DNA from: Thiothrix subterranea
GTDB taxonomy: Bacteria > Pseudomonadota > Gammaproteobacteria > Thiotrichales > Thiotrichaceae
Direction: 5' to 3'
Length of the DNA stretch: 64,000 nt
NCBI RefSeq assembly: GCF_030930995.1
Contig: NZ_CP133217.1
Location: 992,001-1,056,000 of the forward strand
Position 1 is the stretch's first letter. The number at the start of each line of letters is the position of its first letter. Below, in pieces: positions 49,101-54,867 of this stretch. Below the pieces are notes generated by a model. That model did not search any database. It saw only the letters and a list, made by a program, of their open reading frames with translations, and had not been told where the DNA came from. The position numbers were made by a program, and so were the translations under genes.

Positions 49101-50618
49101 ATGGTAAACGCTATTATTATTGCCACTTTGAATGCACGCTACACCCATGCGTCGTTGGGTTTACGCTACTTATTAGCCAATCAGGGTGAGTGGCAAGCGC
49201 AAACAAAAATCATGGAATTTACGATTGCAATGCGCCCGTTGGATATTGCTGAGCAATTATTAATCGGTCGACCGCGTATCATCGGTTTGGGGGTGTATAT
49301 CTGGAATATCACCGAAACCACCGCCTTAGTAGCGTTGCTCAAAGCACTCGCCCCGGACGTGGTAATTGTGTTAGGCGGCCCGGAAGTCAGTTACGAAACC
49401 GCGCAACAAACGATTGTGCAGCAGGCGGATTACGTGATTACCGGGGCGGGCGAGGTGAGTTTCCGGCAATTGTGTGGGCAATTGCTGCACGGGCAAAAGC
49501 CTTTGAATAAGGTTATTGCGGGTGAACAAGTACCGTTGGCGCAGTTGACGCTACCGTATACGCAATACACTGAGAATGATTTGGCAACACGCTCAATTTA
49601 CGTGGAAGCCTCACGCGGGTGTCCGTTTAAATGCGAGTTTTGCTTATCTGCCTTGGATAAAACCGCGTTGCCGTTTGAATTACAACACTTTTTGGCGGAA
49701 ATGGATCGGCTGTGGCAGCGGGGTTTGCGTCAGTTTCGCTTTGTGGATCGCACCTTTAACTTGAAAATTGCCACGACGGTGGCGATTTTGGACTTTTTCT
49801 TGGAACGTTTGGATGCGGCAACGTTTTTGCATTTTGAGCTGATTCCCGACCATTTGCCGGATGCACTCAAGGAACGGATTACCCGTTTTCCACCCGGTTC
49901 TTTGCAGTTTGAAATTGGCATTCAAACCTTTAACCCAGAGGTGCAGGCGCTGATTAGCCGCAAGCAAGACAATGCAAAATCGGCGGAAAATATCCGTTGG
50001 TTGCGGGAACATTCTGCCGCGCATTTGCACACCGATCTGATTTTTGGGTTGCCGGGGGAGGATTTGCCAAGTTTTGGGGCGGGTTTTGACCGTTTGATGG
50101 CCTTGAATCCGCATGAAATTCAGGTGGGTATCCTCAAACGCTTACGTGGTACGCCGATTATTCGCCATACCGAGGCGTTTGGGATGGTGTACAACCCGCA
50201 GCCGCCGTACAACATTTTGCGTACCGATCGGGTGGATTTCGACACCATGCAACAGATGAATCGGTTTGCCCGCTATTGGGACATGATCGCCAATTCCGGG
50301 CGGTTTGCGCATACCTTGCCGTTGTTGTTGGGGGATGCGCCGTTTGCGCGTTTCTGGGCATTGTCGGCTTGGATTTATGCGCAAGTGCAACAAACGCATC
50401 AAATTGCCTTACCGCGTTTATTCGTGCTGGTACATGGCGCTGGGCAGGCAGTGTTGGGGATTGAGCAAAGCGTGTTGGAAGACGCTTTGCTGCAAGATTA
50501 TGCAGTGACGGGGCAGAAAGGGCAGATTCCGTTTTTGAGCGAAGTTCGTAAAAACCGGGCAACGCCACAGGATGGCGGCAAAAGTGGCAATCAGCGCCAA
50601 TTACGCTTTCTGAATTAG
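49101..50618 (+). CDS. B12-binding domain radical SAM protein (DUF4080)
   Basis: 505 residues. The N-terminal cobalamin-binding-like domain (IATLNARYTHASLGLRYLL, VVIVLGGPEVSYE) is followed by a radical SAM barrel with Cx3Cx2C in SRGCPFKCEFCLSAL, then the DUF4080 C-terminal part (GRFAHTLPLLLGDAPFARFW). Binds a [4Fe-4S] cluster and SAM; the reaction is unknown for the family. There is no clear ribosome-binding site in the AT-rich leader. The last 4 nt overlap the convergent lipoprotein gene. Confidence 0.88.
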   Translation: MVNAIIIATLNARYTHASLGLRYLLANQGEWQAQTKIMEFTIAMRPLDIAEQLLIGRPRIIGLGVYIWNITETTALVALLKALAPDVVIVLGGPEVSYETAQQTIVQQADYVITGAGEVSFRQLCGQLLHGQKPLNKVIAGEQVPLAQLTLPYTQYTENDLATRSIYVEASRGCPFKCEFCLSALDKTALPFELQHFLAEMDRLWQRGLRQFRFVDRTFNLKIATTVAILDFFLERLDAATFLHFELIPDHLPDALKERITRFPPGSLQFEIGIQTFNPEVQALISRKQDNAKSAENIRWLREHSAAHLHTDLIFGLPGEDLPSFGAGFDRLMALNPHEIQVGILKRLRGTPIIRHTEAFGMVYNPQPPYNILRTDRVDFDTMQQMNRFARYWDMIANSGRFAHTLPLLLGDAPFARFWALSAWIYAQVQQTHQIALPRLFVLVHGAGQAVLGIEQSVLEDALLQDYAVTGQKGQIPFLSEVRKNRATPQDGGKSGNQRQLRFLN

Positions 50619-51439
50619 GACTTGCTGCACACTTCTTTGGCAAACGTGGGGTAATCGACAATTTTGGCGCTTTCGCAGGCAATCTTGCAGCGCCGCGCGA
50701 ACGATTCCCCAACAAAGCCGGGGTGTTCACCTACCGCCGCGACCCCGCGTGTCAGGTAGCCGGGGAAACTGGCTTGTGGGTCGGCGCAGTTGCTATCGGT
50801 TTCTTGGTGCTCTTTGCACGCGCCTAGGGCTTCTTCGTACAACCAGCGGCAGTTTTCTTCGCCAACAAAGCTTTTGGGTACGGTTTCGAGTTCAATGCCC
50901 AATTGACTGCCTTGCAGTACCGCATTTTTGTGTTTGCCCGCTTGGAAACCCAGATCCAGCAATAAGCGTTCGCCATCGACATTGACGGTGAGATCTTCTG
51001 GCACGGCGTTGAAATCGGCATGGCTCACCATGATGGGGTCAGCGTCTTCATCCAGCAGCAGGAAATGGAACTGGTTTTGCGGGCAAGCTGTGCCGCCGCA
51101 ATTCGTACCAAACAGCACCACATCGCGGTTATTTTGTTTAATGTAGTAGTGCAGCGACAGGTAAAAACCTTCTTGTTGGAAAATTTTCTTATCATCCAGC
51201 AGCAAGGAGTCAGGAGGGAAGTCGGGCTGGCTGTGGGTGATTTGTAATTTGCCAAACCGGGTATCCAGCGTCTCATTTTCCAGCTCCAAGGCTTGGATAT
51301 AGGTTTCCAAGACAGTCACGTTGGAGGAGGGCGAGGCTGCCGGGTTTTCGGGAGTGTTATCGCAGCCTGCCAACATTAACAGCAGGCTACAGGCGCTTAC
51401 CCAACTTAAATGTGCCAGATACTTCAGCATAATGATCAT
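50615..51439 (-). CDS. Hypothetical lipoprotein
   Basis: 274 residues. Signal with lipobox LAGC (about Cys26), then a Glu/Leu-rich stretch (LETYIQALELENETLDT), a strand-rich middle containing LFGTNCGGTACPQNQFHFL, and a Cys-containing C-terminus (CRWLYEEALGACKEH, SNCADP, RRCKIACE). The even set of cysteines suggests disulfides in the periplasm. No family recognised. Convergent 4-nt overlap with the radical SAM gene. Confidence 0.75.
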   Translation of the reverse strand: MIIMLKYLAHLSWVSACSLLLMLAGCDNTPENPAASPSSNVTVLETYIQALELENETLDTRFGKLQITHSQPDFPPDSLLLDDKKIFQQEGFYLSLHYYIKQNNRDVVLFGTNCGGTACPQNQFHFLLLDEDADPIMVSHADFNAVPEDLTVNVDGERLLLDLGFQAGKHKNAVLQGSQLGIELETVPKSFVGEENCRWLYEEALGACKEHQETDSNCADPQASFPGYLTRGVAAVGEHPGFVGESFARRCKIACESAKIVDYPTFAKEVCSKS

Positions 51440-51660
51440 TAATCCGGTGAGGTTCAGGTTTGGATACTAATGGATAGCCATCCGTTCGGCAATTCCTTGT
51501 TTCCAAACGGTTTGCATCCGTTCACCGATCGCAGTGAAGGCGGGGTTTTGGTGGTTATGCATTGTATATTATTCATAACTAAAATATTGTGCACTCTATC
51601 GTCTTGATTTCCTTTCTGTTAAATTGATATTCGTCAGTTGATCATTGAGGAATAATAAAC

Positions 51661-52269
51661 ATGTCTGCATTAGATTTGGCAGATTACTTGCGGTTGCGTC
51701 TGCGTGCCATGCAGATGACGACTACGGAAGCTGCAAAACGCTCTGGTATTTCACGTCAAACATGGCATAAGTTGTTACGTGCAGAAATTGGTGAGGCCAG
51801 ATTATCCACCCTGACTCAGGTGGCGGATACGCTGGAAACTCACCCGTTAAGCATGTTACGTATCTTTTTTAATGGACGTGAGGTGTCACAAGCCGGGCGC
51901 AGAGGCGGTAGTACCGCGTTTGTGCTGGGCTTTGTGGCGGATGTAACCTTCCCCGACAATAGTCAGGTTCGCGTCGGGGAAGAATTTGAGAAAATCTGGG
52001 AAGTCACCAATTTAGGCAAAGAAGCTTGGATTGGTTGGCACTTGCAATGCGTGAGTATTGATGGCGACGCCAAACTCTTACCGGTGAGTGAAAGTGTGCC
52101 GATTCCCGATACTAAGCCGGGCGAGCAGGTGCGTTTAGCGGTGTGTTTGCGTGCACCCAATACGCCGTGCAGCGCGGTGATTTCGCATTGGAAATGTGTC
52201 AATGCGGCGGGCGAAATGGCGATTCCTTCTCATGCTGGTCTGTATTGCATGGTTAAAGTGATACCTTGA
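51661..52269 (+). CDS. HTH protein fused to an NBR1-like Ig domain
   Basis: 202 residues. Residues 1-60 form a Xre-type helix-turn-helix (TTTEAAKRSGISRQTWHKLL). Residues 79-202 match the NBR1 ('next to BRCA1') Ig-like domain: FVADVTFPDNSQVRVGEEF, KIWEVTNLGKEAWIGWHL, TKPGEQVRLAVCLRAPNTP, ISHWKCVNAAGE. In eukaryotes this domain occurs in autophagy receptors; bacterial proteins carrying it are known but poorly studied. GAGGAA before the ATG sets the start. It may be a DNA-binding regulator whose Ig domain senses a protein or glycan. A short paralogue lacking the Ig domain lies at 53286. Confidence 0.8.
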   Translation: MSALDLADYLRLRLRAMQMTTTEAAKRSGISRQTWHKLLRAEIGEARLSTLTQVADTLETHPLSMLRIFFNGREVSQAGRRGGSTAFVLGFVADVTFPDNSQVRVGEEFEKIWEVTNLGKEAWIGWHLQCVSIDGDAKLLPVSESVPIPDTKPGEQVRLAVCLRAPNTPCSAVISHWKCVNAAGEMAIPSHAGLYCMVKVIP

Positions 52270-52305
52270 GCTAGACATCCCAGTCATGGCAGGTCGTCTG
52301 CCAGC

Positions 52306-52333
52306 GTAGAGACGCAAGATTTTGCGTCTCTAC
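52306..52333. repeat. Palindromic repeat, copy 1
   Basis: GTAGAGACGCAA and TTGCGTCTCTAC form a perfect 12-bp stem around a 4-nt loop. It sits between the convergent ends of the NBR1-HTH gene and the LuxR gene, preceded by GTCTGCCA. A second copy in the same context lies at 53614. No T-run follows, so a classical terminator is unlikely. Confidence 0.85.
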
Positions 52334-52344
52334 ATTAGGCTGAT

Positions 52345-53115
52345 TTACAAATGCAATAATCCGGCTAAATAGAACAATCTATCCCGATTAATCCCTCCTA
52401 ATTTATCGCGCAGTTTATCCAGCACCTTGCTGGCGTAGCGATACGAAATCCCCGTGTGATCTTGAATGTTTTTGAAGGGCTTACCCGTGGCAGCGTAACG
52501 CAAAATGGTGATTTCGGTTTCATTTAAGCTTGGTAAAAACGGCGAGGTAAACCGCGTACAAGTTTGCGGGTCAGACAATACCAAACTGTGGAATATCTGT
52601 GTCATCTGCAACAACAGTTCGGCGCGTTCGCGCATTAAATGGTTAAAAATATCAGGGTGTTCGCTGCTGATAATATTGATCGTGGAAATGCCGATTGCCC
52701 CCGCTGCGGGAATACTGAGGGCATTCACGCACCCGTATAATTGCGTGGCTAACTTATCAAAACGATTTTCATCAGGTTTCAGCCCGATGGTTTCAGCGTG
52801 TTCGCGGTAGTTTGTCAGTGAAAAATCGTTGTTTTTGATTTTTTTGACGCTGATGTCGCAGCGATCCAAATTTTCAGCGACGTAGTGTTGCAGAAAATTA
52901 ACCGGGTAATCATGGGTATGCGTGAATTCTGGCGTGGCTGGGAATAGCTTGCCTTCACGTTCCATGCTCAATAGCGGCAAGTAGGTGTAGACAACCCGCC
53001 CCTCAAACCCCAGCGTTTCGATGAAGTTGACGTAAAGCGTGAAGCGTTCTTGAAACGAGGGTTTGGAAAACAGTGTATTAACAAAGTCACCGAGTAAATA
53101 TTGATGAGGGCGCAT
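52345..53115 (-). CDS. LuxR family transcriptional regulator (probable LuxR solo)
   Basis: 256 residues. The C-terminal 65 are a LuxR/FixJ helix-turn-helix (LNETEITILRYAATGKPFKN, SYRYASKVLDKLRDKLGG). The N-terminal part has the shape of an autoinducer-binding domain (HDYPVNFLQHYVAENLDRCD, like the YPxxWxxxY...D pattern of LuxR/TraR). There is no luxI-type synthase in the window. It is flanked by two related HTH genes on the opposite strand. Confidence 0.8.
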   Translation of the reverse strand: MRPHQYLLGDFVNTLFSKPSFQERFTLYVNFIETLGFEGRVVYTYLPLLSMEREGKLFPATPEFTHTHDYPVNFLQHYVAENLDRCDISVKKIKNNDFSLTNYREHAETIGLKPDENRFDKLATQLYGCVNALSIPAAGAIGISTINIISSEHPDIFNHLMRERAELLLQMTQIFHSLVLSDPQTCTRFTSPFLPSLNETEITILRYAATGKPFKNIQDHTGISYRYASKVLDKLRDKLGGINRDRLFYLAGLLHL

Positions 53116-53285
53116 AAATCCAGACTTCCCAGCAACTGGGCTTTGGGTGTTAGTACCGCTAGTCTAACGGCAGTCGACTGCCACGCTCAAGCGGCATCGT
53201 CAAGGGTGGAAATTTCTACCTTGTTGCCCCACGCCCAAACCGTGAAACTCAATGCCATTATTGGGTGTTATCGAGGGAACAGGGG

Positions 53286-53558
53286 ATGTCATCAATGGAT
53301 TTAGCCAATTACGTGCAACGCCGGATGCAAGTGTTGGGTCTCAGCATCAAAGACGTGGCAGAGCGTTCGGGGCTTTCGCGGCAAACCTGGCACAAGCTGA
53401 TGCGAGCCGAGATTCAGGAGGCAAAAGTGTCGACCTTAATCAAAGTGGCGGCGACGTTACGGACTTCGGTTCCCGATTTATTGGAGGTGTATTTCCAATC
53501 GAATGGGGCATCGAATCATCAGTGGAAGCAATATTCGGCAGGTGGCGCGACAGTCTAA
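53286..53558 (+). CDS. HTH protein, paralogue of the NBR1-HTH N-terminus
   Basis: 90 residues from ATG 53286 (GAGGG 8 nt upstream), beginning SSMDLANYVQRRMQVLGL, parallel to the start of the protein at 51661. The helix-turn-helix VAERSGLSRQTWHKLMRAEI is nearly identical to that protein's. The sequence diverges after residue 70 and ends without the NBR1-like domain. It is either a stand-alone regulator that could compete with or heterodimerise with the fused form, or a truncated duplicate. Followed by the second palindrome copy. Confidence 0.75.
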   Translation: MSSMDLANYVQRRMQVLGLSIKDVAERSGLSRQTWHKLMRAEIQEAKVSTLIKVAATLRTSVPDLLEVYFQSNGASNHQWKQYSAGGATV

Positions 53559-53613
53559 TTGCAAGCTGGGGATGGAGGGGGAGCGCATGAATTTGTTGCC
53601 AGGGTCTGCCAAT

Positions 53614-53641
53614 GTAGAGACGCAAAATTTTGCGTCTCTAC
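53614..53641. repeat. Palindromic repeat, copy 2
   Basis: A 28-bp uninterrupted perfect palindrome: GTAGAGACGCAAAA joined to its reverse complement. It lies between the convergent HTH (53286) and purT genes. The preceding GTCTGCCA is shared with copy 1 at 52306. Confidence 0.9.
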
Positions 53642-53670
53642 GGTGGTGTGGTGTTTGCACCTTCAGGAGG

Positions 53671-54867
53671 TTAATTTTTAATTGGCTTCACGCGCCCTGC
53701 CGCTTCCGCCGCTCGCGCCCGCGCTTCATTCGTATCTTTGCCCCGCGCTAACGCCACGCCCATGCGCCGCCGCTCGAACGCCACCGGCTTGCCGAATAAG
53801 CGCACGTCGCTTTCTGGCACTTGCAGCGCGTGTTCCACGCCTTCAAACGCAATGCCTTCCGCTTCCAGCCCGCCGTAAATTACCGCACTTGCGCCGGTGG
53901 AATGCAGCGCAGTATTCACCGGCAAACCGAGGATGGCGCGGGCGTGTAGCTCGAATTCGTTCTGGAATTGCGTTGCCATTGTCACCATGCCGGTATCGTG
54001 CGGGCGCGGGCTGACTTCGGAAAAATACACCTCATCGCCGCGCACGAATAATTCCACCCCAAACAAGCCGCGCCCGCCGAGGTTATCCGTAATTTTCGCG
54101 GCAATGTCTTGCGCTTTGGCGAGGGCGCTGGCGCTCATGGCTTGCGGCTGCCAGCTTTCGACGTAATCCCCTTTGACTTGGCGATGCCCAATCGGGTCGC
54201 AGAAATGGGTGGCGATTGCGCCGTTTTCCCCCACCGCTCGCACGGTAAGCAAGGTGATTTCGTAATCAAAATGGATGCATTCTTCCACAATCACCCGCCC
54301 GTGATTCACCCGCCCCGCTGACAGCGCGTATTCCCACGCGGCTTCCACTTCGTCCGCGCTTTTCAGCATCGACTGGCCTTTGCCGGAGGATGACATCACC
54401 GGCTTGACGAAACAGGGGTAGCCCACGTCAGCGGCGGCGGCTTGCATCTCTGCCAAACTGGAGGCGAAGTGGTAACGCGAAGTCGGCAAACCCAAGGTTT
54501 CCGCTGCCAACCGGCGGATGCCTTCGCGGTTCATGGTCAGTTGCGTGGCGCGTGCGGTGGGAATCACTTCGGCTAAACCGGCGGCTTCAATCGCGGCGAG
54601 TTCGTCGGTGGCAATCGCTTCGATTTCCGGCACGATCAGGTGCGGCTGTTCGGCTTCCACCAAGGCGCGTAAGGCTTGCGGGTCTGCCATATTGATGGCG
54701 TGGGCGCGGTGTGCGACGTGATGCCCCGGTGCATCGGCGTAACGGTCGACCGCGATCACTTCCACGCCTAAGCGTTGCAGGGCAATGATGACTTCTTTGC
54801 CGAGTTCGCCGCTGCCAAGCAGCATGACGCGGGTGGCTGAGGGGGAAAGCGGGGTTCCGATGCGCAT
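53671..54867 (-). CDS. purT: Formate-dependent phosphoribosylglycinamide formyltransferase
   Basis: 398 residues from ATG 54867, which has GGAGG 6 nt upstream; the open frame to 55059 adds non-family residues. ATP-grasp enzyme: PreATP domain [23 protein letters not shown]-binding [16 protein letters not shown], metal ligands in [21 protein letters not shown], and [10 protein letters not shown]. It formylates GAR with formate and ATP, the folate-independent third step of purine synthesis. Cytoplasmic. Divergent from the iron-sulfur oxidoreductase. Confidence 0.96.

Follow-up and report, generated by a model that had tools for sequence, protein, structure and literature searches.

The window analysed here, a stretch of 64,000 nucleotides from Thiothrix subterranea, contains a gene for a protein with an Xre-type HTH and a C-terminal FW (NBR1-type Ig) domain, a combination known as XRE-FW. 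The gene, its two domains and the nearby genes are laid out as follows:

50615-51439, minus strand: divergent gene for a lipoprotein-like protein, matching no Pfam family and found in 10 of 24 compared stretches
51661-52269, plus strand: XRE-FW gene, ATG start, 202 residues (Pfam, model, Foldseek)
51688-51843, plus strand: Xre-type HTH, residues 10-61 (HTH_26 above its cut-off; helices in the model)
51931-52263, plus strand: FW domain, residues about 91-201 (Pfam match over 96-185, model, Foldseek)
52345-53115, minus strand: LuxR-like protein (Autoind_bind below its cut-off, 20.6 vs 23; GerE weak)
53286-53558, plus strand: HTH-only paralogue of 90 residues, sharing 47% identity with the XRE-FW HTH

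Pfam assigns residues 96-185 of the XRE-FW protein to N_BRCA1_IG (PF16158; 50.5 bits, cut-off 28, E 3.5e-13) and residues 10-61 to HTH_26 (PF13443; 27.8 bits, cut-off 22, E 3e-6), with HTH_31 marginally below its cut-off (26.6 vs 27). The three motifs on which the original prediction had based an NBR1-like domain are all present, VTFPD at residues 95-99, PGEQ at 153-156 and SHWK at 175-178. Among solved chains, phmmer returned weak FW matches to ILRUN (0.012), an Ams1-Nbr1 fusion (0.056) and human NBR1 (0.11), as well as 434 Cro at 0.69. When the FW domain was modelled alone with AlphaFold2 (5-row alignment; pLDDT 75.7, pTM 0.68) and the model submitted to Foldseek, the human NBR1 FW domain (4ole) occupied ranks 1-3 (best E 8.4e-7, TM 0.72), the ILRUN FW domain (6vhi) rank 4 (E 5.2e-6, TM 0.72/0.80) and the Nbr1-Ams1 complex (7vqo) rank 7, counted in the best 50 of 1836 matches with E<=10. 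As modelled, the C-terminal domain is an Ig-like beta-sandwich of the kind seen in 4ole and 6vhi, and not the unrelated fold that the original prediction had named as the outcome against it; the fusion of an Xre-type HTH to an NBR1-type domain is upheld by Pfam, the AlphaFold2 model and Foldseek. Confidence is lower for the full-length model (pLDDT 65.6, pTM 0.50), in which the HTH helices and the beta domain are present and residues 68-100 fall below pLDDT 50 and are disordered. Three of the four name-giving FW positions are Trp (113, 123 and 177). The strand-6 position, placed through the conserved Cys after it, is Tyr195, and the 2012 paper (PMC3357945) allowed rare aromatic replacement of the four conserved Trp.

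That such a fusion might be undescribed, as the original prediction supposed, is contradicted by the literature. The name XRE-FW proteins dates from 2012 (Marchbank 2012, PMC3357945), the FW domains of bacterial XRE proteins were aligned again in 2022 (Zhang 2022, PMC9233695), and a Rhodococcus fascians member is drawn in PMC9582228. These proteins have about 200 residues, carry the Xre HTH directly before a C-terminal FW domain and occur in Gammaproteobacteria. The window protein has the identical architecture and is an ordinary, intact member of this published type, its nearest named loci being those of Thiothrix caldifontis (protein 80% identical) and T. fructosivorans (71%). With the FW domains of NBR1 and ILRUN (4ole, 6vhi, 7vqo) it shares the modelled fold, three of the four Trp, and the pocket Phe and acids. 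In contrast, it has an HTH instead, Tyr replaces the strand-6 Trp, and the PB1, ZZ and UBA domains that characterise the NBR1 autophagy receptor are absent from its Pfam matches (E<=0.1). The original prediction also held that the bacterial ligand of this domain is poorly defined, in agreement with a literature in which function is left blank. For the FW domain of XRE-FW proteins, dimerisation or binding of a small signalling molecule has been proposed (PMC3357945), and beyond the three papers cited above our search, which lay outside most subscription journals, found no title on bacterial FW proteins.

Structural work on a fungal homologue provides clues on what the domain may bind. The CtNbr1 FW domain grips the N-terminal Gly-Gly of Ams1 in a pocket for the free N-terminus formed by F651, D654, D658, W672 and W763, of which W763 is needed, and N-terminal peptides have been suggested as ligands for other FW domains (PMC9233695). 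In the alignment to 7vqo the first four residues correspond to F91, D94, D99 and W113 of the window protein, with one extra residue in the loop to D99 compared with CtNbr1; by our own placement, W763 corresponds to Y195. The loop residues are encoded at:

51931-51957, plus strand: codons of F91, D94 and D99, equivalent to CtNbr1 F651, D654 and D658 (7vqo alignment, pocket of PMC9233695, conservation)

We followed these positions through 32 XRE-FW proteins, namely 22 from the single genus Thiothrix, those of genomes G127, G668, G674, G708, G778 and G789, and four actinobacterial ones, leaving out G797 (an FW-only frame of 128 residues) and G779 (a fragment). The D654 place is Asp in 31/32 (Ser in G007), the D658 place is Asp in 31/32 (Gly in G778), and the F651 place is Phe or Trp in 31/32 (Ser in G007); outside Thiothrix the corresponding counts are 10/10, 9/10 and 10/10. 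In a 20-row alignment with a mean identity of 30%, the columns of D94 and D99 belong to those with almost no variation. At the strand-6 aromatic position nine rows have Tyr, one Phe, two His and eight another residue, and since this wall varies, the Gly-Gly sandwich of the fungal protein is not preserved as such. From the conserved residues we infer that the XRE-FW pocket may be an amine-gripping site, which is not a proven N-terminus site.

The same alignment bears on the alternative that the FW domain is a ligand-free module for dimerisation or scaffolding of the HTH, which we regard as unlikely but worth serious attention. Marchbank 2012 (PMC3357945) listed dimerisation among the possibilities, Pfam finds no other known oligomerisation domain in the window protein, and the four invariant columns of the alignment are core Trp and Asn. 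However, a conserved pair of Asp in an exposed loop fits a ligand pocket and no described dimer contact, and the HTH-only paralogues exist without any FW domain.

Tandem FW proteins of Gammaproteobacteria, found in 12 genomes, have PF16158 in common with the window protein but contain two to three FW copies, show no HTH in those read and have signal-peptide-like starts in those seen (loci L036, L041, L045, L046 and L050). In place of the first pocket Asp, they have Gln in 25 and Ser in one of 26 domains identified by pattern (acidic in 0/26), two pattern matches lacking a downstream Trp having been dropped beforehand. The stretch to the strand-2 Asn spans 23 residues in 22 of these domains and 32 in four, compared with 26 in the window protein. 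The domain sets differ slightly, because Pfam gives 27 rows in these genomes and the pattern 26. A counter-example missed by the pattern, the single FW domain of locus L018 (G007:C18), has Asp at both pocket places, and the Asp contrast between XRE-FW and other FW domains is not clean. A hydropathy scan found no membrane-like segment in 31 of the 32 XRE-FW proteins. The exception, a 315-residue frame of Nonomuraea (L088, 6392-7339), has a strong membrane-like segment separating its HTH from its FW domain, which would then lie outside the cell. All of the five closest rows have Cys130 and Cys196, and the rows of G674, G708 and the actinobacteria lack them, a loss on which we rejected a cysteine switch.

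In the host genome (G000) FW is matched twice, by the window gene and by a second copy at C2:3131889-3132536 with 60% identity; the HTH-only paralogues are also two in number. Within the genus, 12/16 genomes gave 23 FW rows, 22 of them XRE-FW (that of G010 partial) and one L018, a 1123-residue open frame with many Ig-like repeats and a single FW domain. At the order level 18/63 genomes match, six of them outside the genus; four of these six were typed, as XRE-FW proteins in G778 and G789, the FW-only frame of G797 and the fragment of G779, the other two being G792 and G798. The class sample yielded 15/369 genomes (G000, G127 with XRE-FW, 12 genomes with two to three FW rows per frame, and G047, whose large frame contains a single FW), and the phylum sample 4/398 (G000 and the XRE-FW genomes G668, G674 and G708). 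Four of 72,556 plasmid records match, all actinobacterial and three annotated as NBR1-Ig-like domain-containing protein, while tblastn found no match among 50,697 phage records. A phage or mobile origin was rejected on these phage records and on a viral-contig scan, whose 54 pattern stretches included no relative; spread on replicons stays in consideration because of the four actinobacterial plasmid records that carry FW relatives.

Clustering of open reading frames over 24 stretches assigns the window copy to a gene block conserved in Thiothrix, ordered as a flavoprotein (by eye), a B12-radical SAM gene, the lipoprotein-like gene, XRE-FW and the LuxR-like gene. Of the 10 loci with the lipoprotein-like gene, five have HipA between it and XRE-FW; the HipA of G014 is supported by Pfam, that of G009 is interrupted, and a HipB-like HTH is called in G008 and G014. 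Furthermore, the region upstream of the window gene includes:

51554-51579, no strand assigned: imperfect 26-nt palindrome, 20/26 symmetric, agreeing in 21/26 bases with the G014 site beside hipBA-like genes

This palindrome is probably the remnant of a HipB-type operator, and HipBA seems to have been lost at the window locus. Such remains, together with the HipA and HipB-like genes of relatives, would suit a regulator tied to the neighbouring HipBA toxin-antitoxin unit, an explanation that we consider very improbable: XRE-FW persists without HipA in the window and in G004, G005, G013 and G011, HipA is absent from the vicinity of the group B and C copies in the 24 stretches, and PADLOC gives only a weak HTH match. 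The latter is mad1, matched by the HTH of the FW protein (E 3.8e-4); the HTH-only protein matches Control_protein (2.5e-6), and a defence system was set aside as a reading. Alignment of 11 XRE-FW upstream regions revealed no trusted palindrome except the HipB-type one, and a scan of 51430-53700 found one promoter and one terminator, with 3.1 and 2.3 in shuffles. A near-perfect hairpin, gtagagacgcaaRattttgcgtctctac, is present in two copies, at 52306-52333 after XRE-FW and at 53614-53641 after the HTH-only gene. Among the group C XRE-FW genes (L062, L064, L065), an AAA-ATPase-like/PDDEXK gene follows in 3/4 loci, and in another family (L105 and L106, from G674 and G708) LysE-like exporter and 2-oxoglutarate-oxygenase-like genes were seen by eye beside XRE-FW.

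A different neighbour recurs elsewhere. XRE-FW abuts a TonB-dependent receptor gene in 6/32 loci from three lineages (group B, G127 and G668) and lacks one at 26/32, including the window copy; the tally covers G778 on one side only, the other lying off the contig, and leaves out the neighbours of the Nonomuraea gene. The second Thiothrix copy (group B) is followed by the receptor in 4/5 genomes (G000, G006, G013 and G014; not G005). The receptor of G127 ends 4 nt before XRE-FW, and that of G668 comes after it, overlapping by 8 nt by the called start and followed by a heavy-metal P-type ATPase. With the Thiothrix receptor as query (E<=1e-10), the neighbour of XRE-FW is the sole match in G127 (252 bits) and G668 (333 bits); in G674, where XRE-FW lies elsewhere, 11 rows reach at most 169 bits. 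Plug domains number five in G000, four in G006, four in G127 and seven in G668. A rough binomial estimate for at least three paired lineages is about 1e-5, with the gene numbers, a chance of 0.004 and 12 lineages all assumed. At loci L074 (G000:C2:3124174-3140533), L082 and L107 the receptor genes that adjoin XRE-FW all belong to one subfamily of TonB-dependent receptors. A literature search combining NBR1 and TonB-dependent found unrelated titles only.

The pairing would also fit an FW domain that binds a small molecule or metal imported by the receptor, the second option of Marchbank 2012 (PMC3357945), which we rate as rather doubtful. A metal would be in line with the P-type ATPase that comes next in G668 and with the two Cys of the closest rows, yet both Cys are missing from the more distant rows named above and no metal gene was seen at the remaining TonB pairs.

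The HTH-only paralogue lies apart from XRE-FW, beyond the LuxR-like gene, and is preceded by a candidate control element:

53203-53222, no strand assigned: palindrome AGGGTGGAAATTTCTACCTT, candidate operator upstream of the HTH-only gene, putative in function

This element falls within the 170-nt gap between the HTH-only gene and the divergent LuxR-like gene. Among the regions that the original prediction had proposed for footprinting, the gap between 53115 and 53286 does contain a conserved palindrome, but one that tracks the HTH-only paralogue across genomes and not the FW gene. In the 16 Thiothrix genomes GGTRGRAATTTCYACC has 12 distinct exact sites, nine of them 53-69 nt before an HTH-only match (G000, G002, G004, G005, G008, G009, G010, G013 and G014); downstream of the other three (G004, G006 and G008) no nameable gene family is common to all three. 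With one mismatch allowed, the 16 genomes contain 30 forward sites against 18 for the reversed control, so that the sites are informative only where they precede the HTH-only gene. With two mismatches, G000 contains 16 against 2, several being copies of one repeat. A short-frame HTH-only match occurs in 15/16 Thiothrix genomes. These paralogues share the HTH family and the stretch SRQTWHKL with the window protein and differ in having no FW domain, in the upstream palindrome and in occurring also in three genomes without any FW match (G001, G012 and G015). Their second residue is Ser in 7/7 rows. An HTH tree of 29 rows separates FW from HTH-only proteins by a single weak branch (73/22), giving no direction. 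Judged from sequence, binding of the XRE-FW protein at the HTH-only palindrome is a candidate interaction only. In several Thiothrix genomes DUF6502 and DUF5666 genes come after the HTH-only gene (L080, 13000-15104; L161).

Taken together, we favour, with some reserve, the reading that the window protein is a cytosolic transcription regulator of the Xre family whose C-terminal FW domain senses the end of a peptide or protein. Established here are the two domains, the predicted fold match, the lack of a membrane segment, the retained acidic pocket residues and the pairing in three lineages; the DNA site, ligand class, targets and direction of control are what we infer. An Xre-type HTH habitually binds its operator as a dimer, and that of XRE-FW presumably does so too. 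With D94 and D99, which lie next to F91 and W113, the FW pocket would then hold the free alpha-amino end of a ligand or some other cationic group, and docking might alter DNA binding or assembly and so set the transcription of a few genes. The likely target in the paired relatives would be the adjoining TonB-dependent receptor gene; for the window copy, the first candidates are the region directly before the gene itself (51440-51660) and the palindrome at 53203-53222. An XRE-FW protein may in this way form a signalling route, as the original prediction had proposed.

In a bolder scenario, which we deem improbable, XRE-FW proteins are bacterial N-terminus readers, switched by a free alpha-amino end through the pocket that serves NBR1 for cargo, and autophagy took over a ready-made sensor. 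The TonB-paired members might then have as ligand a peptide, or a siderophore of peptide type, that is imported, and in Thiothrix the HTH-only paralogue could also supply the ligand with its processed N-terminus, resulting in a mixed repressor.

While the architecture is already published, the retained pocket acids, the pairing with TonB-dependent receptor genes and the palindrome of the HTH-only paralogue are new here. The function of bacterial FW domains has been open at least since 2012, and the kept acidic pocket makes binding directly testable; it is in this testable ligand idea that the interest of the window gene lies. In addition, the pairs with TonB-dependent receptor genes offer a first handle on what XRE-FW regulators control. 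If N-terminus reading proved true, it would reveal the task that the cargo domain of NBR1 had prior to autophagy.
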